NCBI GenBank assembly: GCA_028291765.1 | Contig: JAQGNR010000203.1 | Location: 1 to 64,000, forward strand | Reading direction: 5' to 3' | DNA from: Herbaspirillum sp. | Lineage (GTDB): Bacteria; Pseudomonadota; Gammaproteobacteria; Burkholderiales; Burkholderiaceae_D | DNA length: 64,000 nucleotides | In this document: piece by piece, positions 18,149-64,000 of the stretch | Layout: each line of letters starts with the position of its first letter | Position numbering within the stretch: the first letter of the stretch is position 1 | Program-made: the position numbers and the translations under genes | Notes under the pieces: generated by a model | What the model saw: only the letters and a program-made list of their open reading frames with translations | Databases searched by the model: none | What the model was told of the DNA's origin: nothing

Positions 18149-18649
18149 CTAACGCGGCAACCCGGGCGTAGGGACGATCGCTTCCGGCGGCGGCATGAAC
18201 TTCCATTCACTATATGAAGTCTTTCCTTCGAAGTCCTGGAAACGCGGGTCGAAATTGCCGATTTTAATCGGCTTGCCGTCCGCGAGGCTGTAGACGCCCA
18301 TGATGCCGGGGCCCGGCAGCGCCGGGACGGTTCCCCATTGCTCTTTACCGCTGATCGGATCCACATATATTCTGCGCAGGTGGCGGCGTATGGTCGGAAA
18401 GCGCGGATCTTTCAGCAACTCTTGCAGGGATGGCGGGGTGCGCGGCCGGCCCGGGGGGGTGGCGTTCGCATAGCTCACGAATGCATCGCGAAATTCGTCC
18501 CCGATCATCAGCAGTTCTTCCTCTGCCGCGCGACGCTGCATGACCGACCCCAGCAGCAGTGTCGCGGATGCGGCGACGCCGATCACCGCGACCATAATGA
18601 GTACGCCAATGTAGGTAAAGCCGCGTTCGCGCAGAATCGGAGGCGCCAT
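18149..18649 (-). CDS. Type II secretion-like pseudopilin, third of the operon (copy A)
   Basis: This 166-residue protein starts MAPPILRERGFTYIGVLIMV, a prepilin-type signal with cleavage expected after the Gly of RG, though the usual Glu at position +5 is replaced (GFTYIG). The hydrophobic helix is followed by a charged helix (RRAAEEELLMIGDEFRDAFV) and a globular domain with HLRRIYVDPISGKEQWG and EGKTSYSEWKF. The start at 18649 has TAGGA upstream; a longer open frame to 18919 overlaps the next gene. A paralogue lies at 61010-61552. It is the last gene of the secretion operon reading leftwards. Lack of Glu5 suggests a minor, tip-type pseudopilin (GspK or GspH role), by inference. Confidence 0.85.
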   Translation of the reverse strand: MAPPILRERGFTYIGVLIMVAVIGVAASATLLLGSVMQRRAAEEELLMIGDEFRDAFVSYANATPPGRPRTPPSLQELLKDPRFPTIRRHLRRIYVDPISGKEQWGTVPALPGPGIMGVYSLADGKPIKIGNFDPRFQDFEGKTSYSEWKFMPPPEAIVPTPGLPR

Positions 18650-18656
18650 GATGATC

Positions 18657-19073
18657 CTACCGATCCGAAAACGGGATGTCGGTGCGGCCCCTGCCCGGCG
18701 CCGCACTACGCAAGTCGTAGACACTGCCTTTGCCGTCGTCGCCGGGCGGCACAATGATCCAGCTTGTGGTGCTATTGGTGATCGGGTCGACGGGTAGTGA
18801 GCGCAAGTATTTTTTCTCCACCAGTTCCTCCAGGGAGTCCGGATAGCGCCCGGTGTCCTGATAGAACTTGTCGATCGTATCGCGCGCGGTCGCCAGATTT
18901 CTGACCAGGACCGTTTCACGCGCCGTGTCCACGCTGTGAAAGTAACGCGGAACGGCCAGCGTCAGCAACAGCGCGACGATCGCAAGCACGACCAGCAGTT
19001 CGATCAGCGTGAAACCGCGTTGCGCCAGGCGCTGAAGGGGGGGCCTGTTTGCCCGTGGAATGATGGTCACCAT
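18657..19073 (-). CDS. GspG-like pseudopilin (copy A)
   Basis: This 138-residue prepilin has the signal QRGFTLIELLVVLAIVALLL, with Gly at the cleavage site and Glu at position 5. Its C-terminal domain (DTGRYPDSLEELVEKKYLRS, LPVDPITNSTTSW) is like that of GspG major pseudopilins. It overlaps the preceding gene by seven bases, indicating translational coupling. The paralogue is at 61539-61940, with the same YLRS-x-PVDP signature. It would form part of a periplasmic pseudopilus after processing by a prepilin peptidase, which is not in this window. Confidence 0.9.
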   Translation of the reverse strand: MVTIIPRANRPPLQRLAQRGFTLIELLVVLAIVALLLTLAVPRYFHSVDTARETVLVRNLATARDTIDKFYQDTGRYPDSLEELVEKKYLRSLPVDPITNSTTSWIIVPPGDDGKGSVYDLRSAAPGRGRTDIPFSDR

Positions 19074-19588
19074 TTTCTGTACGGAACACCGTTCAGGCCG
19101 GTCTTCGTCGATTTGGTATAAACATCGTAGATATCGTCGCCGGCTTGCGGATCGTCGGCTTCACTGGCATAGCTCCGTTTGCCCCATGACGCCGATTCAA
19201 GTCCGCTGATGACATCGGCCATCGGGTCGCCCGGAATGCGGCGCAGAAAAAACAGCTTCTTCGGGGTTGGACTGCGCAGGTCGTTGACGCCCTCGACCAG
19301 CACTTCCAGATTTTTCGGGTAGCCCGAAGTGCCGATCGACTTGGTAATCCGCCCTTCGTCGCTGGCGCGTTTGTATGCATCGATCCCGTTCCGGATGTCG
19401 CGCAGCGCGCGCCGCAATGCATGTTCCTGGTCGCGTTGCACCGACACCTGCGCCAGCGGAAGGGCAATAGTGGCAAGCACGCCGATGATCGCCAGCACCA
19501 CCAGCAATTCGATCAGCGTGAATCCGGCGGCAGCCCGCAGCCCGCCTGCACGCGTCTGCCGTTTTGCGAAAATCCAGGCCAGGTTCAT
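19067..19588 (-). CDS. Type II secretion-like pseudopilin (copy A)
   Basis: This 173-residue prepilin has the signal AAGFTLIELLVVLAIIGVLA and a long C-terminal domain with NLEVLVEGVNDLRSPTPKKL, FFLRRIPGDPMAD and the ending TGLNGVPYRKW. The ending and FLRRIP-x-DP are shared with the paralogue at 61934-62458. It follows the secretin gene with a gap of 24 bases and is in the same operon. It is a pseudopilus component; whether it is major or minor cannot be decided from sequence. Confidence 0.9.
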   Translation of the reverse strand: MNLAWIFAKRQTRAGGLRAAAGFTLIELLVVLAIIGVLATIALPLAQVSVQRDQEHALRRALRDIRNGIDAYKRASDEGRITKSIGTSGYPKNLEVLVEGVNDLRSPTPKKLFFLRRIPGDPMADVISGLESASWGKRSYASEADDPQAGDDIYDVYTKSTKTGLNGVPYRKW

Positions 19589-19612: not shown

Positions 19613-21874
19613 TTACGGCTCCACTTGCACCATGTGCGGCGCCGGCGCTTGCGCGGGAATGATGCTTCCCCCGACGCCGACGGGCGCCGCCGTCAACAGT
19701 TGGATTGCGGAGGCGTCGGCTGGCGCCAGTGCGCGAAAATTGATGCTGGCGAAATTTCCGTTGCCGGTTGCGCCGTTTTTGTTGGTGCGGGTGCCGGTGA
19801 TGAGGATTTGGCCGCCGGGATCGATCTTGCTGTTGAAGATGGTCTGGGCGCCGCCTTGCTTGAGGAAGCTGCCTTCGGTCACGCCGCTGGCCTGAAGCAC
19901 CTTCTCGTCATAGGTAATCGCCAACGGCAGACTGGTCACCGGCTGGCCGGACTGCATCGACAACTGTAACGTGAAGGTATCGCCGACCTTTATTTGCTGG
20001 GCGCCGTCCCAGCGCAATTGCGCGCTGCCCGACATTGCGGCGCTTGGCTGCTCGCTGTCGGCGCTCAGCGGCGCCGACGAAGCGTTGTATGGGATCGGTT
20101 GATCCGGCAGGATCGGCTGCGGCGACGGCGAGCCGGCCAACATAATCAGCGGCGATCGGGCGGCAAGCTGACTCATGCCTTCCGGGCGTGTGCGCAGGCT
20201 GCTTTCGGTTCCAGATGAAAACTCGCTCAGATCTATTTCCTGTCTCCCGATGTTGCGGATCAGGTGCGGCGTGATCGACAGCACGATTTCGGTTTTCTGG
20301 TGGTCGTCCGCAGTGGTGCCGAACAGCCGGCCGATCAAAGGCAGGTCGCCCAAGCCGGGCACCTTTTTGGAGCTGCGCCGGTCTTCATCGTTGATGAGTC
20401 CTGCAAGCACTTGGTTCTCACCGTCCTTGAGCCGCAACACAGTGCTCGCAGTACGAGTGCCGATTTGGTAGGCGACCGAGCCGGACTTGGTTTGAAGCTG
20501 GCTGACGATGTTGCTCACTTCCAGGGCAATCTTGATCGTTACGTCGTTATCGAGATGGACCGAAGGTTCTATATCGAGTTTCAGACCCACGTCGATGTAA
20601 TTGATCGATTCGGACGCAAAGCCGGTTGCTGTGGACGTTGTCGTGATGAGGGGAACCCGGTCGCCGATCAGGATCTTGGCTTTTTCGTGATTATGCGCAC
20701 GGATGCGCGGATTGGCGAGGATGTTCGCATCCGCGTTCTGCTTGGTTGCGTTAATCGTGGTGGACCCGATGGTAGCGCCGAGCGTCGAGCTCCTGATGTG
20801 ATGCAAATCGTCCAGGGTGAGCGCACCGGAGGCGGCGGATGCGAGCGGCGTCAGGCTCAGGCTATCCGGCCAGGCAATGCCGAGTTCAAACAGCAGGTTG
20901 CGCTTGACTTCGAGTATTTCCACCTCGAGCATCACTTCCGGCTCCGGCATATCGTGCATTGCAACCAGCTTGGCAGCCAGTCGGATCGCTTCCGGACTGT
21001 CGCGTACGATCAGCATGTTGAGCTTGTCGTCGACCACGACGTCGCGCGACTTGATGATGGTCTTCAAGGTATTTGCCACCATCTTCGCGTCAGCGTTGGT
21101 AAGGTAAAAACTGTGCACGACCATTTCCTGATAGTCCTTCAGCTTGTTCGCGGTGTTCGGATAAATCAAGATCGTGTTTGCGTTCACCACTTGCTGTTCG
21201 AGCTGATTGGTCAGCAGCGTGTAGTACACCGCCGATTCGATCGTGCTGTTTTTTAAGAAAAGCGTAACCTTCTGATCGGTGCGCACATCCTTATCAAACA
21301 GGAAGTTCAAGCCCGATGAGCGAGAGATGACCTCGAATACTTGTTTTAACGAGACATCCTTGAACTCGATCGAGATTGGTTTCTTGTAAGCGGCCGCTAG
21401 CGTCGATTCAACCGGCGCCTTGGCGACGCGGTCTGCGTTTGCGGCATCCTCCTTTCCCTGTGCCTCGGCGAGTTCGCGACGCCGGGCCGCATCCAGCGCG
21501 CGCAGTCCGGCTTTCGAGCGCTCGTTGCCTGAATCGAGCGCCAGCGCGCGCCTGTAAAGCGATTCGGCCGCATCGGGCCTGCCGGCGCTGGCATTGCGGT
21601 CGCCCTGTTCGGCGTAGCTGTTGACGGCGCGCTCGCGTGTTTGAATGTAGGCGACTTTGTATTGCAGCTCCTCCGGATCGCGTGCCAGCGCTTCCTGGAA
21701 TTTGGCCATGCCTTCCTCAACCCGGCCCTGTGCGACCAGTCCTTTGCCTTGGTTATAGGCTATTTCGGCCGCGCATCCGCCAAGCAGCAGGATCGCCCCG
21801 GCAATTGTGCAATTGCGCCAGAAGCGCGGCATCGACGGATACCGGGCGGGTAAGTAAATTCGGTATGCAAACAT
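19613..21874 (-). CDS. GspD/PilQ-like secretin lipoprotein with TPR-type N-terminus and extra C-terminal cohesin-like domain
   Basis: This is the outer membrane channel of the secretion system, 753 residues. The N-terminus has a hydrophobic stretch and lipobox LLGGCAAE. TPR-like repeats follow (EEGMAKFQEALARDPEELQY, then SLYRRALALDSGN). Next come an STN/N0-type domain (ISIEFKDVSLKQVFEVISRS), N-domains, and the secretin core with VPGLGDLPLIGRLF and TEIVLSITPHLI. After the core lies about 150 residues with an Ig/cohesin-like pattern (LRWDGAQQIKVGDTFTLQLS to INFRALAPADASAIQLL), unusual for GspD. The start at 21874 overlaps the upstream stop (TAATG). The open frame beyond it is a shadow of the PilP-like gene. 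Confidence 0.92.
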   Translation of the reverse strand: MFAYRIYLPARYPSMPRFWRNCTIAGAILLLGGCAAEIAYNQGKGLVAQGRVEEGMAKFQEALARDPEELQYKVAYIQTRERAVNSYAEQGDRNASAGRPDAAESLYRRALALDSGNERSKAGLRALDAARRRELAEAQGKEDAANADRVAKAPVESTLAAAYKKPISIEFKDVSLKQVFEVISRSSGLNFLFDKDVRTDQKVTLFLKNSTIESAVYYTLLTNQLEQQVVNANTILIYPNTANKLKDYQEMVVHSFYLTNADAKMVANTLKTIIKSRDVVVDDKLNMLIVRDSPEAIRLAAKLVAMHDMPEPEVMLEVEILEVKRNLLFELGIAWPDSLSLTPLASAASGALTLDDLHHIRSSTLGATIGSTTINATKQNADANILANPRIRAHNHEKAKILIGDRVPLITTTSTATGFASESINYIDVGLKLDIEPSVHLDNDVTIKIALEVSNIVSQLQTKSGSVAYQIGTRTASTVLRLKDGENQVLAGLINDEDRRSSKKVPGLGDLPLIGRLFGTTADDHQKTEIVLSITPHLIRNIGRQEIDLSEFSSGTESSLRTRPEGMSQLAARSPLIMLAGSPSPQPILPDQPIPYNASSAPLSADSEQPSAAMSGSAQLRWDGAQQIKVGDTFTLQLSMQSGQPVTSLPLAITYDEKVLQASGVTEGSFLKQGGAQTIFNSKIDPGGQILITGTRTNKNGATGNGNFASINFRALAPADASAIQLLTAAPVGVGGSIIPAQAPAPHMVQVEP

Positions 21875-22395
21875 TAGTCGGCCTCTCCAATTGTCAGCGT
21901 CTGGATCTGCTTCAGCGGCAGATAAGTAATGGTCAATGTCGGCGGCCTGATCGATTCGGCGCGATACATCTTGTCGATCATGTTTTGCTCGCGCACGACG
22001 TAGGTATCGTTGCCGCGCGCCAGATATGCTTCCCATGTTCCGTTTTCCAGTTTCTTGCCGAGATAGGTAAACGGCAACGGCGGCGCAACGGGTTTCGGCG
22101 GCGGTCCTGCGTTGACTTTTATCGGCGGCGGCGGCGGCGGGGTCCAGCTCTGGACGCCGAATAGCATGTCGGCCGGCCCGCTTGCATTGCCGATCAATTC
22201 GTCGCGTGCGCGCAACTTGCCTATCGCCCGCGCAGCCGTCTGCGCGGAAGTGGCTCCGGGCCCGGCCGGCGCATCGGCGGAGCGGCTGTGCTCTATCGGC
22301 TGTACGACGGCCGTGGCCGGCGATTTGTCGCCAAACCAGGTAAGCCACGCCGCTGCGAGGAGCGAGACGCCTAAACCTAAATGACGCGTTTTCAT
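21874..22395 (-). CDS. PilP/GspC-like periplasmic connector
   Basis: This 173-residue protein has an N-terminal signal anchor (MKTRHLGLGVSLLAAAWLTW), a flexible Ala/Pro region with a run of prolines (WTPPPPPPIK), and a C-terminal beta domain with PPLPFTYLGKKLENGTWEAY, a hallmark of PilP and GspC HR domains that contact the secretin. It is coupled by overlapping start and stop codons to the secretin gene after it and the PilO-like gene before it. By position and domain it should link the inner membrane platform to the secretin. Confidence 0.82.
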   Translation of the reverse strand: MKTRHLGLGVSLLAAAWLTWFGDKSPATAVVQPIEHSRSADAPAGPGATSAQTAARAIGKLRARDELIGNASGPADMLFGVQSWTPPPPPPIKVNAGPPPKPVAPPLPFTYLGKKLENGTWEAYLARGNDTYVVREQNMIDKMYRAESIRPPTLTITYLPLKQIQTLTIGEAD

Positions 22396-23009
22396 GGGAC
22401 GTGATCCTCCATGGTGGCGAGTTTCTGCTCCTGGCGGACAAGCGGCGCGTCGCTCAGGTAAAAAGTGAAACGCAGCCGCGCGTCCAGTGCACCGTTGCCG
22501 ATAGCATCGCGCTTGAAGCTGATTTCATCGAGCGATGCGAACGGGATTGCCAGCAGAACTCTCTCGCAGAATTGACGTATGGCGCTGTACGAGCCGGTCA
22601 TCGGCAACAGAATCTGATAGCTGTAGCTCTGGCTATTGCGCTCTTTTTCGGACTTGTACTCGCCCTTGGCCAGCGCTAACCCGCTAGCGCGGGCGATGTC
22701 GAACAGGACGCGGATCTGCGCTTCGGCGCGACGACGGTCGCCCAGCACGGCGTAGAAGGCGGCGAGATCCGCCTGGGCCGGGGAGATCGCGGCTTTGAGC
22801 GGTGCGGCCGGCATCGCCAGCAAGGCCGCGCGCCGGTCGCTAAGTTCGGCCTGTTGCGTCTCGATCTTGGTCTGCTGTTGCGGAATCCACCACAACCAGC
22901 ACAGCGCGCCCGCCAGACACAGCAGAGCGGCAACGATATTGCTCGCGCCGAAAGCCGAGAATGCAAGATGCGTTCGCAACGCCAGTTTTCCGATATACGC
23001 GGTTTTCAT
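22392..23009 (-). CDS. PilO-like inner membrane platform protein
   Basis: This 205-residue protein has one N-terminal membrane helix (IVAALLCLAGALCWLWWI), a coiled-coil stretch (QQQTKIETQQAELSDRRAAL) and a ferredoxin-like periplasmic domain (YQILLPMTGSYSAIRQFCER), the plan of PilO and GspM. ATG 23009 overlaps the stop of the PilN-like gene (ATGA); the frame continues to 23027 but without such coupling. It would pair with the PilN-like protein. Confidence 0.82.
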   Translation of the reverse strand: MKTAYIGKLALRTHLAFSAFGASNIVAALLCLAGALCWLWWIPQQQTKIETQQAELSDRRAALLAMPAAPLKAAISPAQADLAAFYAVLGDRRRAEAQIRVLFDIARASGLALAKGEYKSEKERNSQSYSYQILLPMTGSYSAIRQFCERVLLAIPFASLDEISFKRDAIGNGALDARLRFTFYLSDAPLVRQEQKLATMEDHVP

Positions 23010-23557
23010 TTTCCGGTGTCCTCCCATACCGCCAGAAACTGGAAGCGCAGCGGCCTGTTCGGATCCTGCTCATTGATTTCATGCCGAGTCAGCACCACCG
23101 AATCGAAAAACGGTTGACTGCCGATCCGTGCGATGTAGTTCAGCATGTCGTCGCCGTTCTTGGCCTCCGCCGTGCCTTTGATCGCGTGCCGCTTCGCATC
23201 GGGGCTGAGTTCCAGTAATGCGACGCTGGCCGGCGTTGCCGATTCGATCGCTTGAAATACATCGCGCCAAGGCAGATTGAGGCGGCCGACGATCTCGTTT
23301 ACCGCGTCGGCCTGTCCATCCGGAATGACGACTTCGTGTCGCGCCGGCGCAGGCTGGATGCGCGCTGCGATGCGTGTCTGGATGCGTTGCAGTTCGGCCT
23401 GCCGCGCCTCACCTTGCCTCAGCAGGTTATATGCGATAACCGCGGAACTCGCGCATAGCATCAGTCCGATCGATCCGATCAGCCAGGTTGCGGGCCGGGT
23501 GCGCGCAATGGTGCGTCGAAGCGAACGCGGCGCAAAGTCGATGCGGCTGGGTTTCAT
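23006..23557 (-). CDS. PilN-like inner membrane platform protein
   Basis: This 183-residue protein starts MKPSRIDFAPRSLRR, has one membrane helix (WLIGSIGLMLCASSAVIAY) and a periplasmic domain with LPWRDVFQAIESATPASVAL followed by LLELSPDAKRHAIKGTAEAK, which is the PilN/GspL-C pattern. It overlaps both neighbours by four bases. The short cytoplasmic N-terminus is the usual PilM-binding segment. Confidence 0.83.
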   Translation of the reverse strand: MKPSRIDFAPRSLRRTIARTRPATWLIGSIGLMLCASSAVIAYNLLRQGEARQAELQRIQTRIAARIQPAPARHEVVIPDGQADAVNEIVGRLNLPWRDVFQAIESATPASVALLELSPDAKRHAIKGTAEAKNGDDMLNYIARIGSQPFFDSVVLTRHEINEQDPNRPLRFQFLAVWEDTGK

Positions 23558-24375
23558 GCGCGTGCTCCCGTATAGGCCAGCGTAGCGCCGGCCGACTCAC
23601 TCGCGAAATCGGGCGTCGGAGGCATGGCGTCGAGCCGGATGCAGGCCGGCTCGCCGGGACCCTGGGTTATCCAGGCATCCGGCACACAGCCGCAGAGATG
23701 GATGCGCTCCGGCACAGGCAGCGCCAGTCGTAGTGCTTCGCGCGCGATCTGTTCCGGCAACCAGGTCTGATCGGTACACGCCGCAAACGGTACGGCCAGG
23801 CGGCGCAGGTCGACCAGCCGGCGTCCGCTAATTACACCCAGGGTCAGTGCGTCGGCATGCGCGGTCCCGTACCAGGTATTGGCGTGCACGCCGCGCCGCC
23901 AGCGATTCCAGGCCGCCACGAATTGCGGCATGATGCTGACGAATGTCAAACGGCGCTCGGCGCCGGCCTGCTGCAGCGCGCCCAGTATCGAACGCGGCAA
24001 CGCGCACGCCAGAAACGGATGTTGCGCCTCCCAGTCGGCGTCTATCGTCCAGTCTTGTGGCGGCTCGCCATACAGCGACTGAAAGCGCAGCGCCGCCGCC
24101 GCCTTGCAGTCCCGAAGCCATTCCGCGTTATGCGGCGGAGTGACCATGAACAGACGCGCCCAGTCGTCGGCCAGCACCACGGTCGTCGCCAGCTTCGCGC
24201 AGCTTGCATCGACCAACGCCGCGCGCAGGCCTTCCAGGATCTGCTGCGACGAACTGCCGTCGAGCGGATATTCGGTCAACACTTCGCGGCGGGGACGCGA
24301 CCAGCCGCTGGTGCGCAATAGCGTCACCGAACTTCTGGACAGCCCGATGCGCAGCGATGTATTGAGCTTATCCAT
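23554..24375 (-). CDS. PilM/MshI/GspL-like cytoplasmic platform protein
   Basis: This 273-residue protein has no membrane segment. It resembles the divergent actin-fold proteins of type IV pilus and MSHA systems, with phrases such as LATTVVLADDWARLFMVTPP and SIMPQFVAAWNRWRR, but clear nucleotide-binding motifs are not visible. The start at 24375 lies inside the end of gspE (ATGGATAA), so the genes are coupled. The assignment rests mainly on position between GspE and the PilN-like protein. Confidence 0.7.
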   Translation of the reverse strand: MDKLNTSLRIGLSRSSVTLLRTSGWSRPRREVLTEYPLDGSSSQQILEGLRAALVDASCAKLATTVVLADDWARLFMVTPPHNAEWLRDCKAAAALRFQSLYGEPPQDWTIDADWEAQHPFLACALPRSILGALQQAGAERRLTFVSIMPQFVAAWNRWRRGVHANTWYGTAHADALTLGVISGRRLVDLRRLAVPFAACTDQTWLPEQIAREALRLALPVPERIHLCGCVPDAWITQGPGEPACIRLDAMPPTPDFASESAGATLAYTGARA

Positions 24376-27267: not shown

Positions 27268-27357
27268 ACCATAACCTCCGCAAACGGACGTGTGACAGGT
27301 AAGTAAGCTGGAATCAATGAGCAGAATTTTCAAAACAGGACTTGGTAAGAAGCCCTG

Positions 27358-27681: not shown

Positions 27682-28134
27682 CTAATTGCTAATGTCGGCG
27701 TTTTCGCCGGCGCCTCCCGGTTGTCCATCTTTGCCATATGACAGTAGTTCGATCTCACTGGTTGCGCCGGGAGATCGATATTGATACGGATGGCCCCACG
27801 GATCCATTGGAATACTTTTTTGCAGGTATGGACCGTTCCATTGCGTGGCGCTTGGCGGTTTGGTCACCAGCGCCGCCAGGCCTTCCTCGGAGCTTGGGTA
27901 ACGCCCGACATCGAGGCGGTAAGTATCGAGCGCTTTTCCCAGCGCTTCGATCTGCGCCTTGGCGATCGTGCGTTCGGATTTTCCGAGTTGTGCAAAATAC
28001 TTCGGCCCGACATACGCAGCCAGCAAACCGATGATCACGACCACGATCAACAATTCGAGCAACGTGAAGCCGCGAGAGGGGCGCGTAAGCGATGCCGAAG
28101 CGCGAGAATTTCGCATACTGGAAGAGGTGAGCAT
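27682..28134 (-). CDS. gspG: Major pseudopilin GspG
   Basis: This 150-residue protein is a classical GspG. It has the prepilin signal SRGFTLLELLIVVVIIGLLA with Glu5, and the conserved C-terminal domain with LDTYRLDVGRYPSSEEGLAA and WNGPYLQKSIPMDPWGHPYQ, ending with the calcium-site region LLSYGKDGQPGG. It is more typical than the GspG-like copies at 18657 and 61539. The start at 28134 is seven bases after the stop of the lytic transglycosylase gene, so the two are co-transcribed. The pair lies between the arms of the inverted repeat, apart from the main secretion operon. Confidence 0.95.
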   Translation of the reverse strand: MLTSSSMRNSRASASLTRPSRGFTLLELLIVVVIIGLLAAYVGPKYFAQLGKSERTIAKAQIEALGKALDTYRLDVGRYPSSEEGLAALVTKPPSATQWNGPYLQKSIPMDPWGHPYQYRSPGATSEIELLSYGKDGQPGGAGENADISN

Positions 28135-42873: not shown

Positions 42874-42899
42874 AGGATGCTTTGGCCGGCAGGATATTG

Positions 42900-44534: not shown

Positions 44535-44556
44535 TTCTTCCCCCCTGACACAATGA

Positions 44557-44579
44557 ATACCCTACCGCCGGTTGGGTAT
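44557..44579. promoter_or_regulatory. Hairpin in the leader of the multicopper oxidase trio
   Basis: ATACCC and GGGTAT enclose a shorter ACC/GGT stem, 88 bases before the 44667 start codon. There is no T-tract. It may be a weak terminator after the cytochrome fusion or an operator for the downstream genes. Confidence 0.3.
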
Positions 44580-44666
44580 CCCTCCCTATATTTCTTCCCT
44601 TCCGTCTCTCGTATTCTCTCCTATAAGCCCGGTTCGTGTTTTGCTTATGGAATGAAGGAGATCGTG

Positions 44667-56498: not shown

Positions 56499-56509
56499 TG
56501 GGGAACGGA

Positions 56510-56974
56510 ATGAATCGGAGAAGAGGCCTTGCCGGCGCTTTCGCTATTGCCGCGGCGATCGGTATCTGCGGTCCGGTGTGCGCCGGCGTCAAGGAAGATC
56601 CGCGGGACGCCGCGCGCGTCTGGCGCATCTATCGGAATCCCCAATTCGAGCGGACATGGGGCATTAACATCCTTGGGATTCGGCTGGTCTCGTCGGGATG
56701 GATGCTGCAGTTCAAATACCGTGTGATCGACCCCGAAAAGGCGAAACTGCTGCTCGACCGTCAAGCCAAGCCTTATTTGACCGACAAGACCAGCGGCGCG
56801 ATGCTTGCCGTTCCGGCGATGGAAAATATCGGCGAATTGCGGCAAGCGACTTCGCTGGCGGCCGGCCGCGACTATTTCATCATTTTCGGGAATGCCAACA
56901 AAGTGGTTCAACGCGGCAACCGGGTCAATATCGAGATCGGACCATTCCATGTCGACGATCTGGTGGTGGAATAA
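56510..56974 (+). CDS. Small secreted protein of unknown function
   Basis: This protein of 154 residues begins MNRRRGLAGAFAIAAAIGIC with a signal peptide, likely cut near VCAG. The mature part has VWRIYRNPQFERTWGINILG, GWMLQFKYRVIDPEKAKLLL and GRDYFIIFGNANKVVQRGNR. I do not recognise the family; the beta pattern suggests a small immunoglobulin-like or chaperone-like domain. ATG 56510 has GGGGA upstream; an earlier ATG at 56495 overlaps the stop of the giant gene (ATGA). It is very likely translated with the giant protein. Confidence 0.7.
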   Translation: MNRRRGLAGAFAIAAAIGICGPVCAGVKEDPRDAARVWRIYRNPQFERTWGINILGIRLVSSGWMLQFKYRVIDPEKAKLLLDRQAKPYLTDKTSGAMLAVPAMENIGELRQATSLAAGRDYFIIFGNANKVVQRGNRVNIEIGPFHVDDLVVE

Positions 56975-57015: not shown

Positions 57016-57885
57016 ATGAACAGCAAATCCATCATATTCGGCCTTCTGAAATGGCATTGCGTCCTGACTGCGATGGTTGTCCTGTCGACGCCGTCAAGGG
57101 CCGAGACGCGCACCTTGAGCGCGGCGCAAGTGGTGGAAAAGAATGTGGCGGCGCGCGGTGGCGGCGCCGCTTGGCGCGCAATCCATTCGATCTCTTTTGC
57201 AGGCAATATGGACGTGGGTCGGACACACCCGACGCCGGCCGGCACGGTAGATAGCCCCGCATCGGCGCCGCCCAGTCCGAGCCGCGGGAAAATGCGCATG
57301 ATGATCACTGAGGGGCCGGTGAAAAAAGACGACGTCATTGCGCTGCCATTTCGGCTTGACATGAAACGGCCGCACAAGAACCGACTGGAACTGGACTTTG
57401 CTGGGCACACCGCGATTCAGGTCTACGACGGTAGCGCCGGCTGGAAACTGCGTCCATTCATGGGGCGCTCCGAGGCCGAACCGTTCAGCCCCGTCGAAAT
57501 GAAGATCGCAGCATCGCAGCAGGAACTCGACGGCCTGCTCATCGATGCCCCCGCCAAGGGAAGCGCGATCCACATGGAAGGCATGGACAACGTTAATGGC
57601 GTGCAGGCCTATAAGCTTAAAGTCACGTTGCGCAATGGAGATGTACGCCGGGTATGGGTGGATGCTTCCACGTTTCTGGATATCAAGGTCGATGGCGTCA
57701 GGGATATCGGCGGCCGTTCGCTCACCATGACGACGCTGTTGGGCGATTATCGCCGTGTCGACAACGTGATGATTCCTTTCGTCATGGAGACGCGCGGAAC
57801 CGGCTTGAAAGAATCCGAAAAAATAATCATCAATAAAGTGGCGATTAACGCCGACCTTCCCGATGCGCGTTTCGCAAAACCGTAG
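57016..57885 (+). CDS. Secreted LolA/LppX-fold-like protein (first of a pair)
   Basis: This 289-residue protein has a signal peptide (VLTAMVVLSTPSRAETR). It starts with TLSAAQVVEKNVAARGGGAA and WRAIHSISFAGNM, a pattern found in outer-membrane-lipoprotein-sorting-like proteins. Later phrases are FRLDMKRPHKNRLELDF, AIQVYDGSAGWKLRPFMG and AYKLKVTLRNGDVRRVWVDA. The fold should be an open beta-barrel that holds a lipid or other hydrophobic ligand. AAGAGGAAAG precedes the ATG. The next gene encodes a paralogue of the same plan. The role in the oxidase cluster is unknown. Confidence 0.72.
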   Translation: MNSKSIIFGLLKWHCVLTAMVVLSTPSRAETRTLSAAQVVEKNVAARGGGAAWRAIHSISFAGNMDVGRTHPTPAGTVDSPASAPPSPSRGKMRMMITEGPVKKDDVIALPFRLDMKRPHKNRLELDFAGHTAIQVYDGSAGWKLRPFMGRSEAEPFSPVEMKIAASQQELDGLLIDAPAKGSAIHMEGMDNVNGVQAYKLKVTLRNGDVRRVWVDASTFLDIKVDGVRDIGGRSLTMTTLLGDYRRVDNVMIPFVMETRGTGLKESEKIIINKVAINADLPDARFAKP

Positions 57886-57904
57886 CGCAGTCAAACGGAC
57901 AATC

Positions 57905-58771
57905 ATGAAAAACGAAGAACTGTGCATGATGACGCTGGCGGTAATGCTGACTGTGGCGATCAACGCAAAGGCGGCCGAATCGAACCGGCCGGATATGGCC
58001 GTGGAAAATCCGCAAGGGCGGCTACCCGCCGTCGAGGAAATTATCGAACACAATGCGGCGGCCCGCGGCGGTCTCGAGACATGGCGCGCAGTCACCAGCC
58101 TGAGCGAATTCGGCCGCATGGAAGCGGTCGATCTCAATGCGCTCAATGGCGCCGGCAAGGCGCGCCGGAGCGCCCGTCAAAAGATGGAGACGGATTCACG
58201 CGACATGAGAGTGCCCTTCACGCTGCATATGCAGCGTCCTCACAAGCTGTATCTCGAAATCCAGTACAAGGGCGTGAGCGCCGTCCAGGTCTTCGATGGC
58301 GTGCAAGGCTGGACTGTGACGCCTTCATCCAACGGGGCCGTCGTGCGTCAATACAGTCCGGAGGCGGCGCGCACCGCCTCCGTACAGCAGGATCTGGACG
58401 GACCCCTGATCGACAGCGCGGCAAAAAATACCAAAGTGCTGCTGGAAGGGACCGAATTGGTGGATGGACGGAAAACCTATCGCCTGAAGTTGACGTTGCG
58501 CGACGGGCAGGAGCGCCATCTCTGGATCGATGCCGAGACCTTTCTCGATGCGAAAATCGACGGCACCCGTATCGTGGGGGGAACGGCCTGGCCGGTCGAG
58601 ACGTATTTTTCTGCCTACAATAAGGTCAATGGCCTTCAGATTCCCCATATTCTCGACACATCGATAGGCGGCGCTCGCACCCTCGAACGAATTATTGTCG
58701 AGCATGTCTCAGTCAATCCGGTCTTGAGTGAGGCAATTTTCGCTGCCCCGATATCTGCGCCCGCCCGATAG
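57905..58771 (+). CDS. Secreted LolA/LppX-fold-like protein (second of a pair)
   Basis: This 288-residue protein is a paralogue of its upstream neighbour. It has a short signal (MMTLAVMLTVAINAKAAES), then LPAVEEIIEHNAAARGGLET, FTLHMQRPHKLYLEIQYKGV, AVQVFDGVQGWTVTPSS and YRLKLTLRDGQERHLWIDAE, each matched in the first copy. I chose ATG 57905; the frame is open to an ATG at 57863 inside the preceding gene, and neither has a strong ribosome site. The pair appears to be a local tandem duplication. Confidence 0.72.
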   Translation: MKNEELCMMTLAVMLTVAINAKAAESNRPDMAVENPQGRLPAVEEIIEHNAAARGGLETWRAVTSLSEFGRMEAVDLNALNGAGKARRSARQKMETDSRDMRVPFTLHMQRPHKLYLEIQYKGVSAVQVFDGVQGWTVTPSSNGAVVRQYSPEAARTASVQQDLDGPLIDSAAKNTKVLLEGTELVDGRKTYRLKLTLRDGQERHLWIDAETFLDAKIDGTRIVGGTAWPVETYFSAYNKVNGLQIPHILDTSIGGARTLERIIVEHVSVNPVLSEAIFAAPISAPAR

Positions 58772-59166: not shown

Positions 59167-60309
59167 ATGATAAAGCTGCAGCAGATAATGACGGCGATGC
59201 ACAAGATGAGTAGTGAACTGGAGCTGTCGAAGGCGCAATTCGGCGAGTTGACCGAACTTATCGGGATCGCCTCCATGATTGTCGACTGCAACGGCGGGAT
59301 CGTCAGCATCAATGAGACGGCCGCCGCGATGATCGGTTTCAAGCCGGAGGATCTGGTCGACACCTTGCTGACGGAACTTGTGATAGACGGCAGGCGCGAG
59401 CTCGATGAAATCCTGATTCCAAGCATGAAATCAGGCAAGTTTGAATCGTTCGATCTGGTGTTAAGAGGCCGCACCGGCCGGAAAAGCCCGCTCTGCGTGG
59501 TACCTCAGCCCATTGAGCATACGGATGGCGTTACGCGTTCGTTGCTGCTGGTATTCACGGAAAAAAGCAATCACAACGCCTTGTTGCAGACCTTGCACCG
59601 GTCCGAATCGCAGCTTCAACAATTTTCCAATCGTTTAATCGCCGCCCACGAAGTCGAGCTCAAGCGGGTGTCTTCGGAATTGCACGATGGGCTCGGCCAG
59701 GCGCTGACGATGATCAAGTTCATGGTGGAAGACGCCTCGCGGCACATCAAGGATGGCGAACCAGAATTGGGTAGCCGGGTTCTGGATGAAACGGTGGAGT
59801 GCCTGCGCGAGGCGATGTGTGAAGTCAGGCGTATCTCGCTGGAACTCCGCCCCAGCAGCCTGGACGACCTGGGACTGATTCCGACCATCGAATGGCATTG
59901 CCGTAATTACCGGCGAGCCTACAGGAATCTGTCGCTAAAGCTTGATCTCAACGTGATCGAAGCGGAAATCCCGAAAGTACTCAAGCTGGAGATCTATCGC
60001 ATCATCCAGGAGGCGTTGAACAATGTCGCCAAGCATGCCAATGCGTCCGAGATAGTGCTCTCGCTGCGGGTCGAACATGCCAGTCTGCTCCTGGTCATTC
60101 AAGATAATGGAACCGGCTTCGATGCGAATCAACTTTACTTCGAGATGGTCAACCGATGTGGTCTCGGCTTGAAGAGCATGAATGAGAGGGTCGAGTCGAC
60201 CGGCGGCGTGCTATTGATTCAGTCCGGAAATGGCGGCACGACAGTGGATGCCCACTGGACGCTGCAGGCGGTCGCATCCGATTTGTTGCCGCAATCGTCC
60301 GCCGGTTGA
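59167..60309 (+). CDS. Soluble PAS-domain sensor histidine kinase (NarX/HPK7 type)
   Basis: This 380-residue kinase has no membrane segment or signal. Residues of about 25-125 form a PAS domain (LTELIGIASMIVDCNGGIVS). The HisKA_3 region has the phosphoacceptor H173 in SSELHDGLGQALTMIKFMVE. The HATPase shows LNNVAKHANASEIVLSL (N box), DNGTGFD (G1) and CGLGLKSMNERVESTGG (G2). The natural partner is the NarL-type regulator on the opposite strand, whose end overlaps it by 91 bases. AAAGGA precedes the ATG. The PAS ligand is unknown. Confidence 0.93.
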   Translation: MIKLQQIMTAMHKMSSELELSKAQFGELTELIGIASMIVDCNGGIVSINETAAAMIGFKPEDLVDTLLTELVIDGRRELDEILIPSMKSGKFESFDLVLRGRTGRKSPLCVVPQPIEHTDGVTRSLLLVFTEKSNHNALLQTLHRSESQLQQFSNRLIAAHEVELKRVSSELHDGLGQALTMIKFMVEDASRHIKDGEPELGSRVLDETVECLREAMCEVRRISLELRPSSLDDLGLIPTIEWHCRNYRRAYRNLSLKLDLNVIEAEIPKVLKLEIYRIIQEALNNVAKHANASEIVLSLRVEHASLLLVIQDNGTGFDANQLYFEMVNRCGLGLKSMNERVESTGGVLLIQSGNGGTTVDAHWTLQAVASDLLPQSSAG

Positions 60310-61013
60310 ATGCGCGCCGCCCGCAACGCACCGGGCCGCCGGTCAAATGTCCTTGCTACTACCCTGTTTTCAATTAAACCTTTATCGAGCGCAAGAAGAA
60401 CGAGTTCGGCCGCATTTTTCAAACCGAGCTTGTGCATCAGATTGGCGCGATGTTTTTCCACAGTCTTTGAACTGATATTCAGAAATTCGGCCGCCAGGCG
60501 ATTAGTGCATCCCTCAGCGATGAGTTTAAGGATGCTGCGTTCACGCGAGGTGAGCGTGTCCCACGGCGTGGCGGTGGGTGCGGGGAGGTCGCGATGCAAA
60601 ATGATGTCGATCAAGTGAATGGACAAATCCGGGCAGATGAATTTTTTACCCGTGATCACCGTATGTATGGCGCGAACGAATTCTTCATATGAGGAATCCT
60701 TGAGCGCGTAGCCGTCGGCCCCCGCGCGCAAAGATTCCCGTACATATTCATCGGTCTTGTAACCCGACAGCACAAGAATGTATATGCTTGCCATGCGTCG
60801 CTTGATTTGCGCGATAGCCTCGATGCCGCTTATGCCGGGCATGGAGAGATCCATCAGGATGAGATCCGGTTGCAATGAAATGGCGTTATGAATGGCCTCT
60901 TTGCCGTTGGTGGCTTCACCCACTACCTCGTAGTCGGGAAGCCTCATGATCATGGATCGCAGACCTTCCCGCAGCAAATTATGATTTTCGGCGATTAAGA
61001 TTCGTTTACTCAT
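60219..61013 (-). CDS. NarL/FixJ-type response regulator with C-terminal extension
   Basis: This 264-residue regulator has a receiver domain with phospho-acceptor D55 (LILMDLSMPG) and a LuxR-type DNA-binding domain (LTSRERSILKLIAEGCTNRL, ISSKTVEKHRANLMHKLGLK). The last approximately 50 residues after LDKGLIEN are extra compared with the family. They are encoded opposite the end of the kinase gene, so they probably arose by loss of a stop codon. The ATG overlaps the stop of the pseudopilin gene upstream (ATGA), so the regulator is part of secretion operon B. Confidence 0.93.
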   Translation of the reverse strand: MSKRILIAENHNLLREGLRSMIMRLPDYEVVGEATNGKEAIHNAISLQPDLILMDLSMPGISGIEAIAQIKRRMASIYILVLSGYKTDEYVRESLRAGADGYALKDSSYEEFVRAIHTVITGKKFICPDLSIHLIDIILHRDLPAPTATPWDTLTSRERSILKLIAEGCTNRLAAEFLNISSKTVEKHRANLMHKLGLKNAAELVLLALDKGLIENRVVARTFDRRPGALRAARIQPADDCGNKSDATACSVQWASTVVPPFPD

Positions 61014-61552
61014 GGCGTTCCCCTTGTCTTTGTCGATGTTGACGGTACGGACGGTGAAGATCTGGATGAATTTCTGCGGCGCGGCGGGCTAAACAAGAAC
61101 CTCCATTGGTCGTAGGTTTCGAGTCCTTCGAATCCGGTGTAGGGCGGGGAAAAGCCGCTGCGCTTGATTGCCGGTTTGGTCGACTTGCTCGCCACCCCGT
61201 TAATTTGGTCGCCGATGCGGAGCAATTCGAACGGTTCGCCTGTTATCGGATCCGGATAGAGGCGGCGCAGATGCCGTACCGGCGCCGGGAAGCGGTCGTC
61301 CTGGAGCAAATCCTCCATATTCGATGGGAGCACTTTGACTGCGCCGGGCGTCGCATAGTAATACCGCTCGATCGCCATCCGATACTGATTGCCGACAAAC
61401 AGCAGATCTTCTTCGCTTTCACGCTGCCGTTCGAACGACCACCAGCTAACAGCACCCATGAGCGCCACCGATAGCAATGCCAGCGTCAGCAGGAACGCGA
61501 GTAATGCGACACCGCTTTCGGGCCGCTTATCGAGGTGCTTATTTCGTATCAT
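61010..61552 (-). CDS. Type II secretion-like pseudopilin (copy B, paralogue of 18149-18649)
   Basis: This 180-residue protein has a short basic N-terminus and the hydrophobic helix GVALLAFLLTLALLSVALMG, then a charged helix (ERQRESEEDLLFVGNQYRMA) and HLRRLYPDPITGEPFELLRI, which parallels HLRRIYVDPI in copy A. The prepilin cleavage motif is weak (SGVALL, without Glu5), as in copy A. The start at 61552 lies inside the end of the preceding gene; the frame is open to 61693. The C-terminus is Arg/Ser-rich and differs from copy A. Confidence 0.8.
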   Translation of the reverse strand: MIRNKHLDKRPESGVALLAFLLTLALLSVALMGAVSWWSFERQRESEEDLLFVGNQYRMAIERYYYATPGAVKVLPSNMEDLLQDDRFPAPVRHLRRLYPDPITGEPFELLRIGDQINGVASKSTKPAIKRSGFSPPYTGFEGLETYDQWRFLFSPPRRRNSSRSSPSVPSTSTKTRGTP

Positions 61553-61940
61553 TGCGCGCCCCGGCAGAACTGAGCACGTCATATACTCCGCCCAGTTCCG
61601 GATCATTCGGGGCGACGATAGTCCAGTTGCTCTTCTCAGTAAGAGGGTCGACCGGGACGCTGCGTAGGTAGCGCTTTCCAACCAATTCATCAAGCGTTTC
61701 CGGATAGCGGCCCTGATCGCCGAAAAATTTGTCGAGCGCGTCGCGTATCGACGATAGGTTCTGTTGCTGCACCTTGACTTTTCCGCTGTCGAACGCCATG
61801 AAATAGCGCGGCACGGCCAGCGTCAGAAGCAGGCCGATCAGCGCCAGCACAATCACCATTTCGATGAGGGTGAAGCCGCTGTTGCGGGTTGCGATCGTTT
61901 GCCGCGAGCGCGTGGCAGGATGTCGTAGCACGGTCACCAC
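61539..61940 (-). CDS. GspG-like pseudopilin (copy B, paralogue of 18657-19073)
   Basis: This 133-residue prepilin has the signal NSGFTLIEMVIVLALIGLLL and a C-terminal domain with QGRYPETLDELVGKRYLRSV and PVDPLTEKSNWTIV. The same signatures occur at the same place in copy A. It overlaps its upstream neighbour by seven bases and its downstream neighbour by 14, so the operon is tightly coupled. Confidence 0.9.
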   Translation of the reverse strand: MVTVLRHPATRSRQTIATRNSGFTLIEMVIVLALIGLLLTLAVPRYFMAFDSGKVKVQQQNLSSIRDALDKFFGDQGRYPETLDELVGKRYLRSVPVDPLTEKSNWTIVAPNDPELGGVYDVLSSAGARNDTK

Positions 61941-62458
61941 TCCTTGTAGTAAATGCCGTTGAGACCCTGGCGGGTCGACTGCGAGGCTATATCGAATATA
62001 TCCGCGCCCGGCTGGGGAGCGTCGGGCGGGCTTCCGTAACTGCGCAGACTCCAGGTCTGTTCGGCCGGTAGTGTTGCGTCCTGAAAAAACGGGTCGCGCG
62101 GAATGCGGCGCAAAAAGACCAGTCGCACGTGCTTGGGATCTGCCGGATTTTCTATGCCGTTGACCAGTATTTCCAGAGAAGGCGGATAGCCGGATTCGTC
62201 TGCGAGTTTAGGAATCTGACCGGTGTCCGAAGCCTTTTTATAAGCATCGAGTGCGCCGCGAATCTGCCGCAACGCAAGTTTCAGTTCCGTTTCCTTCACG
62301 CGCACCGACGTGATTTCGAAAAGAGGCAGCGCCACCAGCGCCAACAAGCCCACCAAGGCCAGCGTAGTGACCACTTCGATCAGCGTGAAGCCACGCATCT
62401 CCCTGGTATCCATATATTCCAAGGTTGTGTGGCCGAGAGTTCGTCCGTCGCGTTTCAT
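61934..62458 (-). CDS. Type II secretion-like pseudopilin (copy B, paralogue of 19067-19588)
   Basis: This 174-residue prepilin has the signal MRGFTLIEVVTTLALVGLLA and the C-terminal phrases SLEILVNGIENPADPKHVRL, FLRRIPRDPFFQ and RQGLNGIYYKEW, matching copy A. The gene starts at 62458, overlapping the end of the secretin gene by four bases (ATGA). A shorter start at the second or third Met would put the cleavage site closer to the N-terminus, as usual for prepilins. Confidence 0.9.
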   Translation of the reverse strand: MKRDGRTLGHTTLEYMDTREMRGFTLIEVVTTLALVGLLALVALPLFEITSVRVKETELKLALRQIRGALDAYKKASDTGQIPKLADESGYPPSLEILVNGIENPADPKHVRLVFLRRIPRDPFFQDATLPAEQTWSLRSYGSPPDAPQPGADIFDIASQSTRQGLNGIYYKEW

Positions 62459-64000
62459 GTGGATGTTGACTTTTTCTTCAATATGAAGTTTCTGAAATGT
62501 CCGCTATGAATGCACGAAATTGGTGAATCATGGCAGTCGACAGGCAGTAGCCGCGGGGCGTCCACATCCCCGAGAGTCGCTTCGACGAAACTCAGCACCG
62601 CCGAGTTCCATGATATTTCGGGGCCCGCGCCCACAACCGGGATGACGGGACCTGCGGCCGGCGCTGGCGCTGTAGGAGACGGAGCCGCCGGCGCAACAGC
62701 GCCGCCAGGAGCGGTAGGAGCGGGCGGAGTCGGGGCCGGCGCCGGTACCGCCGGCTCGACCTGATTGCCGGCGCCGACTGCTGGATTGACGGGAGTAGAA
62801 CCCGCGCTGGAGACCGGATCGAGACGCAAGGGGTTTTCCCGGATCGCGCCTTCCGTACCCGACCAGACGTCTGCCGTGGCGTCTTCGGCGACGGCCTTGG
62901 CGCGTAAGATGCGGGGAGTGATCGACAGCACTATCTCGGTTTTGGTGCGGTCGCCGTTATTGTTGGAGAACAAACGTCCCAGTATTGGAAGCTGACCGAT
63001 GCCTGGTACTTTGGAAGCGGTATTGCGGTCGGAGTCGCTGATCAATCCGCCAAGAATCTGCGTTTGGCCGTCATGCAGACGCAGGCTCGTCGATACCATC
63101 CGTGTGCCGATCTGGTAGGCGAGGGATCCCGCCGGTCCTGCGATTTCCTTGACGATATTGCTGACTTCGAGATTGAGCAGGATTCCAACGTCCCCTTCGG
63201 GGTAGGTGTGCGGCTGGGCTTCGAGCTTGATGCCGACATCGATATATTGGACCGAGCCTGTAACGACAGGGGTGCCGGTCGATACGGGCGTGACGGTATT
63301 GGTGATGATCGGAACCTTGTCGCCGATGAGAATTTTCGCCTTTTCGTTGTCGCGCACCCGGATGCGCGGGCTGGCCAGCAGATTCGCGTCCGTGTTTTGC
63401 AGTTTGAAATTCAGGGTCGCTTGCAGCGGGGTCGTCAGCAGCTGATTACCGGTCACGTGTTTGAGCGCACCGAATGTCAGCGCACCGCCGGCTGCATCTG
63501 GCGGGGTCGACAAGCTGAAAGTATCCGGCCACTCTATGCCGAGATTGCTTAGTTTGTCGCGCGAAATTTCCAGCACTTCAACCTCAAGCATGACTTCTGC
63601 CTCGGCCAGATCGTGCGCTGCAATGACTCTGGCAGCCACCGACAGCGCTTCAGGCGTATCGCGCAGAACCAGCATGCCGCTGTGTTCATCGACCTGTATT
63701 TCCTTGATCTTCAGCACGTTCTTTAGCATGCTTTGGATATATTTTGCGTCGCCGTTGGAGATCTGGAAAGTACGTACCTTGAGTTCTTGATACTCTTTCT
63801 GTTTCGCCGGAATCGCGGGATAGATGAACATCGTATTGGCGTTGAGCGTTTTCTTTTCAAGCTGGCTTTGCAGCAGAATCAAATCAACTGTGTCTTCGAT
63901 CGTTCCCGACCGTACGAAGATGGTGGTCTTCAAATCGGGCCTCACGTCGCGGTCGAAGATGACATTCAGGCCGGTGGTGCGCGAAAGCGCCTCGAACACC
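62455..64000 (-). CDS. Secretin (GspD/PilQ-like), copy B, N-terminus outside window
   Basis: The visible part has about 514 residues and is the paralogue of the secretin at 19613. It begins within the STN/N0 domain (FEALSRTTGLNVIFDRDVRP) and has N-domains. The secretin core contains VPGIGQLPILGRLF and TEIVLSITPRIL. After the core an Ala/Pro linker leads to ISWNSAVLSFVEATLGDVDA, where copy A has its cohesin-like domain. The rest here is only a short tail ending in FRNFILKKKSTST, so the domain has been lost. The gene runs off the window end, so its lipoprotein and TPR regions cannot be seen. Confidence 0.9.
   Translation of the reverse strand, partial: VFEALSRTTGLNVIFDRDVRPDLKTTIFVRSGTIEDTVDLILLQSQLEKKTLNANTMFIYPAIPAKQKEYQELKVRTFQISNGDAKYIQSMLKNVLKIKEIQVDEHSGMLVLRDTPEALSVAARVIAAHDLAEAEVMLEVEVLEISRDKLSNLGIEWPDTFSLSTPPDAAGGALTFGALKHVTGNQLLTTPLQATLNFKLQNTDANLLASPRIRVRDNEKAKILIGDKVPIITNTVTPVSTGTPVVTGSVQYIDVGIKLEAQPHTYPEGDVGILLNLEVSNIVKEIAGPAGSLAYQIGTRMVSTSLRLHDGQTQILGGLISDSDRNTASKVPGIGQLPILGRLFSNNNGDRTKTEIVLSITPRILRAKAVAEDATADVWSGTEGAIRENPLRLDPVSSAGSTPVNPAVGAGNQVEPAVPAPAPTPPAPTAPGGAVAPAAPSPTAPAPAAGPVIPVVGAGPEISWNSAVLSFVEATLGDVDAPRLLPVDCHDSPISCIHSGHFRNFILKKKSTST

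Follow-up and report, generated by a model that had tools for sequence, protein, structure and literature searches.

Gene content of the locus

The stretch of Herbaspirillum sp. DNA analysed here (assembly GCA_028291765.1, contig JAQGNR010000203.1; hereafter the window) covers positions 1 to 64,000 of a contig that is 85 kb long, in a draft assembly of 4.68 Mb, and carries genes of type II secretion systems (T2SS) together with genes of multicopper oxidase-like (MCO) proteins. The copper genes lie between two minus-strand secretion operons, operon 1 (18149-28134) and operon 2 (61010-70413 on the contig), the second of which extends beyond the window end at 64,000 and is seen in the window only as a tail. 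As an initial annotation of this DNA had stated, the two operons share their gene order, and each consists of 11 genes; they do stand apart, with a gap of about 33 kb (about 35 kb there). The other genes listed for this interval were recovered as well: two SCO1/SenC copper chaperones, a CCP_MauG di-haem peroxidase, a cytochrome c fusion, two SLT transglycosylases and a histidine kinase with a LuxR-type regulator. Of the four genes described as multicopper oxidase-like, however, only MCO_A carries all four copper motifs; MCO_B and MCO_C have one half each and MCO_D has none.

The gene order common to both operons is GspG, GspF, GspE, PilM/N/O/P-like, a secretin with tetratricopeptide repeats (TPR) and three more pseudopilins, the final one lacking Glu5. 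The secretins are 44% identical across some 500 residues, and this value, together with the same 11-gene order occurring twice, is far beyond chance. When domains were called with Pfam at curated cut-offs (NCBIfam was also applied), T2SSG, T2SSF, T2SSE, PilN, Secretin, TPR and N_methyl were detected in operon 1 and Secretin, TPR, N_methyl and T2SSE (67028-68191) in operon 2. The GspF of operon 2 was recognized by homology to other GspF sequences and its GspG by reading and by homologues; its PilN match (E=0.0097) is under the cut-off. The PilM, PilO and PilP genes have no Pfam match and are named by position, and neither Pfam nor NCBIfam provides a name for the last pseudopilin (ppK). By this gene content, both operons encode type II secretion machinery, the inner-membrane part of which is probably of the PilN type. 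No prepilin peptidase was seen within either operon, the rest of the genome not having been searched for one. The whole genome holds six secretins and five T2SSE-family ATPases above curated cut-offs.

Distribution of the copper ligands over MCO_B, MCO_C and MCO_D

A scan of 84,980 species genomes returned at least 460 relatives of MCO_B, and the best 80 loci of these were examined. They include loci of Glaciimonas, Collimonas, Cupriavidus, Pandoraea, Trinickia, Paraburkholderia, Burkholderia, other Proteobacteria and Acidobacteria, and the MCO_B of the window shares 88% identity with the Glaciimonas immobilis protein. The motif counts refer to 79 MCO_B sequences (L216, where MCO_B runs off the contig, was dropped beforehand) and to 73 MCO_C sequences (the MCO_C of L163 is in two pieces, one of which was counted). 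Here, we found HxxHxHG and HCH-x4-EH-xx-MGM, which correspond to the type 1 copper motif and four trinuclear-site histidines, in all 79 MCO_B proteins. The other four trinuclear histidines, located in HxH(G/A)N and HSHxE, were present in 73 of 73 MCO_C proteins; HPxHxHG was complete in 55 of them and had alanine in place of the glycine in 18. HCH occurred in none of the 73 MCO_C and the MCO_C half of the motifs in none of the 79 MCO_B, and the motif blocks are thus divided without overlap. Neither protein has all four copper motifs on one chain. MCO_D was examined in 20 named loci with a complete open reading frame (ORF). Only two of these proteins contained HxH within the first 600 residues and none contained HCH; the N-terminus shows homology to MCO_C (E=3e-12) and has other residues at the ligand positions. 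For lack of a copper motif set and because of this replacement, MCO_D was rejected as an oxidase. None of the three proteins is a single large oxidase chain with copper motifs of the MofA/OmpB type.

The two genes that share the motifs are closely coupled. In 70 of 73 loci MCO_C starts between -43 and +127 bases from the MCO_B stop, and the six MCO_B loci that have no MCO_C all end at most 1.5 kb from a contig end. TAG terminates MCO_B in 58 of 79 loci, compared with 78 of 262 other matched ORFs of the same loci, and the MCO_B stop codon contributes to an AGGA(G) motif ahead of MCO_C in 56 of 79, as is to be expected for coupled translation.

Structure comparison assigned MCO_B and the modelled part of MCO_C to the two-domain laccase fold, since both superpose on 2zwn and 3g5w. 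The best match of the MCO_B model was 3g5w (Z 17.2, rmsd 3.3, 237 residues; Z 16.9 to 2zwn), with copper nitrite reductases, which have the same fold, scoring nearly as high (Z within 1). For the MCO_C part it was 2zwn (Z 27.1, rmsd 2.9, 278 residues; Z 26.9 to 3g5w). In a profile alignment, the MCO_B ligands coincide with those of domain 1 of 3g5w, and the second domain gives a weak, non-significant match without ligands. Known two-domain oxidases build their trinuclear centre at the contact of adjacent subunits, one of which contributes domain 1 and the other domain 2. Judged by its motifs, MCO_B keeps the chemistry of domain 1, MCO_C that of domain 2 and MCO_D that of neither. This ligand partition predicts an obligate hetero-oligomeric multicopper oxidase, similar to a two-domain laccase trimer with diverged subunits. 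With three diverged subunits, one trinuclear centre per trimer would be expected, as in ceruloplasmin.

Alternatively, MCO_B and MCO_C might be separate homo-oligomeric copper proteins, such as electron carriers or copper stores, which are encoded side by side and share no trinuclear centre. The models, in which each protein has its own complete two-domain fold, are compatible with this, and a model of a B-C read-through fusion gave no confident arrangement (pTM 0.53). In addition, two proteins of Sideroxydans ES-1, discussed below, are described with canonical multicopper oxidase motifs in the excerpted account of Keffer 2025 (PMC12016527). However, two independent proteins would hardly account for a division of the motif blocks that is complete in 79 MCO_B and 73 MCO_C sequences, and both the immediate succession of the genes and the overlap of stop codon and ribosome site point to matched production. 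Moreover, to go by the two-domain oxidases, neither ligand set alone would make a trinuclear centre. We consider the separate-protein explanation unlikely and prefer a hetero-oligomer of MCO_B and MCO_C.

Linkage of operon 2 to the oxidase genes

Operon 2 and the copper genes at 41587-61013, which include SCO_B, the MofC-like cytochrome, MCO_B, MCO_C and MCO_D, form a conserved unit. Around strong MCO_C relatives and in G016, a genome of the same genus, we repeatedly found LT2, SCO_B, the MofC-like cytochrome, MCO_B, MCO_C, MCO_D, h159, the LolA-like proteins, the regulators and the T2SS. The designation MofC-like derives from the gene setting and a single haem motif and not from a match to MofC; NCBIfam gave no name for this protein, and neither Pfam nor NCBIfam gave one for h159. 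In G016, operon 2 and the oxidase genes make up one island on one contig. The distances between secretin and MCO_B in the order genomes G217, G299, G016, G142, G071 and G248 are 3.8, 10, 14, 29, 30 and 43 kb. G202 (= G472) has neither LT2 nor SCO_B nor a nearby T2SS, and its secretin and MCO_B are on different contigs. In the family of G217, 3 of 22 genomes carry the MCO genes, none of them additional to those already counted.

At least three kinds of T2SS gene lie inside the 10-kb flanks of 13 of the best 80 MCO_B loci. For placing the secretin, 44 of the 80 loci were chosen for long contigs and named isolates; L169 was left out, and the rest represent 40 genomes. An operon 2-type secretin (E<=1e-120) was detected in 31 of the 32 non-acidobacterial genomes with MCO_B. 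It shares the contig with MCO_B in 20 of the 32, at 2.0-30.3 kb, and a look at the neighbourhood in other genomes, as proposed earlier for this locus, thus places this secretin within 31 kb of MCO_B in each of the 20. In one of them, G444, the contig-sharing secretin gene is split in two (E=2.6e-112), and a better-scoring copy lies elsewhere. The chance that one random copy falls within 31 kb in a 6-Mb genome is about 1%. In 11 of the 32 genomes, secretin and MCO_B are on separate contigs, both towards the ends (summed distances to the nearest contig ends 8.7-30.1 kb), and these genomes therefore neither show nor exclude linkage. In seven drafts (G435, G449, G455, G456, G462, G464, G468) the assembly is interrupted some 12 kb from the secretin and also near MCO_B, at about 17 kb in six of them and at 6 kb in G435, which could reflect a repeat between the two genes. 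Taken together, these data indicate that a T2SS operon is coupled to multicopper-oxidase genes and that this coupling is conserved across genera, which bears out one part of the export system postulated in the initial annotation.

The T2SS beside the oxidases could also be a general exporter, and its nearness a matter of shared neighbourhood instead of dedicated export. This would agree with the occurrence of the same T2SS family in many genomes that have no such oxidase nearby, with the opposite strands on which oxidase genes and operon 2 lie, and with the second MCO_B copies of G442 and G465 on other contigs. It does not explain why all 20 contig-sharing non-acidobacterial genomes keep the two genes less than 31 kb apart, nor why linkage to the oxidases is clustered on both gene trees described below. 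There is also a precedent in Geobacter sulfurreducens, the multicopper protein OmpB of which is reportedly secreted by an atypical T2SS (Mehta 2006). A general exporter appears improbable to us, and we favour an exporter that belongs to the oxidase.

Phylogeny of the two operons

The GspE tree comprises 42 rows, two of which are the outgroup; G045 (L076), L009 and L010 are not in it, and the GspF tree omits five rows. In the GspE tree, operon 1 groups with seven relatives, none of which has MCO_B or MCO_C in the fetched stretches (SH-aLRT 100), and operon 2 groups with seven others, all eight rows being near MCO_B/MCO_C (SH-aLRT 100). The GspF tree recovers the same two sets (SH-aLRT 99 and 99). 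The label "linked" is clustered yet stands at several places, and the starred branches force at least two changes (gain or loss) in both trees. By this placement, operons 1 and 2 belong to different clades and are different machines, and the suggestion that they bracket one redox island as a joint system is not supported by the tree comparison. A recent duplication of the operons was likewise rejected, because their secretins are only 44% identical and because they fall into separate clades in both trees.

The surroundings of operon 1 agree with this placement. In G016, its relative is on another contig than the island, with no oxidases within the 40 kb examined. Among 38 stretches fetched by secretin similarity, none carries an MCO_A match and one (G016) carries the island oxidase genes. 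Near operon 1 and seven relatives, no recurrent non-T2SS family with a member in the window emerged as shared cargo, except for a dehydrogenase match shared with G021. Operon 1 is the machine of another clade that happens to neighbour the complete oxidase MCO_A here. That both operons and all oxidases form a single bracketed export island is very improbable: both operons do flank copper genes in the window (MCO_A starts 1.4 kb past the first gene of operon 1 and MCO_B lies 16 kb away), but the different clades, the separate contigs in G016 with no oxidase near operon 1, the missing MCO_A matches and the rarity of PKD_2 relatives (2 of 399 genomes at E<=1e-20, own included) all contradict it.

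A type I secretion ABC-transporter-like gene (L051 14360-16561), not present in the window, recurs near operon 1 relatives in four of the eight genomes compared. Next to operon 1, at 13411-17944, the window encodes a Rieske-type oxygenase, a dehydrogenase, a reductase and an MFS transporter, read from sequence as an apparently unrelated catabolic cluster.

Other genes of the window

The features of the window are compiled in Table 1. MCO_A is a single-chain, bilirubin oxidase-like multicopper oxidase, and next to it a di-haem peroxidase is flanked by two PKD proteins (32201-39501). The MCO_A, PKD and peroxidase genes look like a separate, rarer oxidase set. In the other genome with a PKD_2 relative, G050 (L228 9225-15389, L229), this gene has a SCO gene in its vicinity, together with a very large oxidase (2054 aa) that contains several HxH motifs and that we take to be MnxG-like. 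In G400 (L220 7806-11126, L222), a 1106-aa single-chain oxidase with all four motifs and a fibronectin type III-like tail neighbours a MofC-like gene, accompanied by LT2, a regulator and, some 10 kb from the oxidase, a T2SS operon; this arrangement suggests that, depending on the genome, the exporter and the cytochrome work with different oxidases.

The C-terminus of SecD2 (62455-62560) stops abruptly where the G016 protein runs on into a cohesin-like domain; most of the tail is lost, which resembles a deletion. Such a tail was also not seen in the aligned Cupriavidus (L160), Trinickia and Pandoraea relatives. The pseudopilins without Glu5 were considered as an oddity and dismissed as such, since GspK-type tip pseudopilins usually lack this residue. 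Beyond the window, at 78500-79279 of the contig, a protein ending in a PEP-CTERM-like tail is encoded.

Table 1. Features of the two secretion operons and of the genes between them
Feature	Position	Strand	Basis and remarks
ppK1, operon 1 pseudopilin, GspK-like, without Glu5	18149..18649	-	conserved last gene of unit; no Pfam match
ppI1, operon 1 pseudopilin	18657..19073	-	N_methyl
ppH1, operon 1 long pseudopilin	19067..19588	-	N_methyl
SecD1, operon 1 secretin with TPR and C-terminal cohesin	19613..21874	-	Secretin (PF00263) E=1.2e-41; Cohesin E=2.9e-11
Operon 1 PilP-like	21874..22395	-	conserved position; no Pfam match
Operon 1 PilO-like	22392..23027	-	conserved position; no Pfam match
Operon 1 PilN	23006..23557	-	PF05137 E=2.9e-5
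Operon 1 PilM-like	23554..24375	-	conserved position; no Pfam match
Operon 1 GspE ATPase	24368..26056	-	T2SSE E=2.2e-117
Operon 1 GspF	26053..27333	-	T2SSF E=8.5e-43
Operon 1 GspG major pseudopilin	27682..28134	-	T2SSG (PF08334) E=5.1e-42
LT1 lytic transglycosylase	28141..28776	-	SLT
MCO_A, complete multicopper oxidase	29559..31364	+	Cu-oxidase_2/3; bilirubin oxidase 8rtq E=1.3e-65; four copper motifs on one chain; twin-arginine-like signal (read from sequence)
SCO_A copper chaperone	31414..32013	+	SCO1-SenC
PKD_1 protein	32201..34726	+	PKD domain; 61% identical to PKD_2
Di-haem peroxidase	34851..36953	+	CCP_MauG
PKD_2 protein	37015..39501	+	Pfam PKD scan
LT2 lytic transglycosylase	41587..42207	+	SLT; matches in islands of G016, G217, G299, G071, G248, G142, not G202
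SCO_B copper chaperone	42253..42873	+	SCO1-SenC E=2.1e-22; present in 6 of 7 other islands (absent from G202)
MofC-like mono-haem cytochrome fusion	42870..44534	+	Cytochrom_C; one CxxCH in 9 of 9 sequences examined
MCO_B	44553..46229	+	type 1 copper motif and half of trinuclear-site histidines
MCO_C	46239..47879	+	other half of trinuclear-site histidines; without type 1 cysteine
MCO_D, 2863 aa	47907..56498	+	ligand-less MCO_C-like module on adhesin-like protein; SdrD_B, weaker cadherin/Ig and ASH matches
h159, small conserved island protein	56495..56974	+	recurrence in islands
LolA-like protein a	57016..57885	+	LolA_like E=1.2e-4, under curated cut-off
LolA-like protein b	57863..58771	+	position and likeness to a; no Pfam match
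Histidine kinase	59167..60309	+	read from sequence; conserved in G016 island
Response regulator, LuxR type	60219..61013	-	Response_reg and GerE
ppK2, operon 2 pseudopilin, without Glu5	61010..61552	-	no Pfam match
ppI2, operon 2 pseudopilin	61539..61940	-	read from sequence; homologues in related islands
ppH2, operon 2 long pseudopilin	61934..62458	-	N_methyl; TIGR02532 above cut-off
SecD2, operon 2 secretin	62455..64000 (on contig to 64617)	-	Secretin (PF00263) E=4.3e-39; then PilP, O, N, M, GspE, F, G to 70413

Proposed mechanism

Starting from the observed gene content, the conserved linkage, the ligand partition and the fold class of MCO_B and MCO_C, we consider it probable that operon 2 and the copper genes constitute a split oxidase with its own exporter for the oxidation of a donor at the cell surface. 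With a little less confidence, we favour a trinuclear centre made from two polypeptides, in which three diverged two-domain proteins form a ceruloplasmin-like ring that is exported folded by its own T2SS. In this scheme, MCO_B, MCO_C and the N-terminal part of MCO_D would be diverged two-domain cupredoxins of the two-domain laccase type that assemble in the periplasm into one hetero-oligomer. SCO_B would deliver the copper, and a single trinuclear centre would form at the MCO_B/MCO_C interface. The pseudopilus of operon 2 would then drive the folded complex through the secretin of this operon, the LT2 transglycosylase would open the cell wall, and the adhesin-like stalk of MCO_D may hold it at the surface. 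There, a poorly soluble donor would be oxidized and O2 reduced. Fe(II) minerals would be the most likely donor, and Mn(II) or phenolics are possible. Both Mn(II) and Fe(II) remain candidates. Solid Fe(II) is favoured because the matching cluster of Sideroxydans ES-1 reached, in the excerpted proteomic data, a higher abundance in late cultures on magnetite than in those on Fe(II)-citrate (Keffer 2025, PMC12016527).

Several observations weigh against this explanation. The B-C fusion model is not confident overall and the MCO_B ligand loops have low pLDDT, so that the shared site is a prediction. Export of MCO_B, MCO_C and MCO_D by operon 2 is itself our inference. The secretion family is commoner than the oxidase (in 20 of 61 relatives at E<1e-90), and MCO_C is rare, with matches at E<=1e-60 in 7 of the 399 genomes of the order, the present one counted. 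The secretin was placed for 44 of the 80 loci, themselves the best of at least 460, and many of these are close relatives. Among them, G438 has MCO_B and MCO_C and no secretin match at E<=1e-30; the second MCO_B of G442 and G465 (L178, L202) lies on contigs other than that of the secretin; and G464, one of the 11 genomes with separate contigs, has a weaker secretin (3.4e-125) on the MCO_B contig at a distance of 200 kb, with its best one on another contig. The eight acidobacterial genomes gave distant secretins only (27-32% identity). These are on the MCO_B contig in three of the eight (0.8-18.6 kb), the weaker matches of the other five not all having been placed. Finally, operon 1 of the window is only 16 kb from MCO_B and is nevertheless labelled as unlinked in the trees, in line with its relatives, which show no linkage to these oxidases. 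As a separate observation, the gene immediately upstream of MCO_B encodes a distant secretin in L198 and L215, which are of the acidobacterial type.

The proposed split site predicts which genes need joint expression for activity. It would also turn the vaguely described "cupredoxins" of a mineral-oxidizing bacterium into a defined, testable enzyme with a likely exporter, and the MCO_B/MCO_C pair, usually with a T2SS nearby, could serve as a marker for such a copper oxidase in Burkholderiales, other Proteobacteria and Acidobacteria.

Comparison with known systems

The gene set had been thought to match no known system. This is not borne out, since the oxidase genes are very probably the same cluster as one described for Sideroxydans ES-1. 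According to the excerpted accounts, Slit_1812-1818 of this strain comprises three cupredoxin genes, SCO1/SenC, a predicted cytochrome and small proteins; one cupredoxin, far larger than the others, has adhesin-like domains and lacks copper motifs, and similar clusters were noted in Paraburkholderia and Ralstonia (PMC5566968, PMC12016527). The correspondence to our island (three cupredoxins, one of them large and motif-less, with SCO and cytochrome) is one of published description and not of sequence. The ES-1 cluster of He 2017 and Slit_1812-1818 are presumably identical. The main text of Keffer 2025 (PMC12016527) makes no mention of type II secretion or of secretion in general, and a division of the motifs between two ES-1 proteins is not stated in the excerpted accounts of the cluster in He 2017 and Keffer 2025. 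In the open-access literature, subscription papers being outside the scope, we found no report of a divided site or of a T2SS link for the oxidase cluster. As far as these searches show, the oxidase cluster has been published already, and the export link and the divided active site are added here.

Geobacter OmpB/OxpG likewise reportedly combines a multicopper protein with an atypical T2SS, but OmpB, compared here by description only, is one chain with a fibronectin domain. The oxpG gene is not known to lie beside ompB. In the excerpts of He 2017 (PMC5566968), the ompB cluster contains a distant mofC homologue and a SCO gene, and Leptothrix mofABC joins an MCO gene to one for a putative cytochrome. 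MofA itself is a single large oxidase, whereas the catalytic motifs of the island are spread over two proteins.

The two-domain laccases or blue copper oxidases 2zwn and 3g5w have the fold of MCO_B and MCO_C and a ligand spacing like that of MCO_B. Their chains, which form homotrimers, hold both halves of the site in one polypeptide, whereas in the island different proteins keep the halves. For the island, as in ceruloplasmin and MnxG, one would expect three two-domain units that share a single trinuclear centre, but the island distributes them over three genes and chains and has no six-domain chain. With the B-C fusion model as query, the seven best Foldseek matches included 9bxa (Mnx) and 1kcw (ceruloplasmin); since the TM-scores are low (0.24), only the fold class is shared. 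A published scheme for six-domain copper oxidases, as far as the excerpt goes, starts from a triplicated one-chain ancestor that lost sites later (PMC3600357). If the shared centre of MCO_B and MCO_C is real, it would represent a natural intermediate between the homotrimeric two-domain oxidases and six-domain ceruloplasmin or MnxG.

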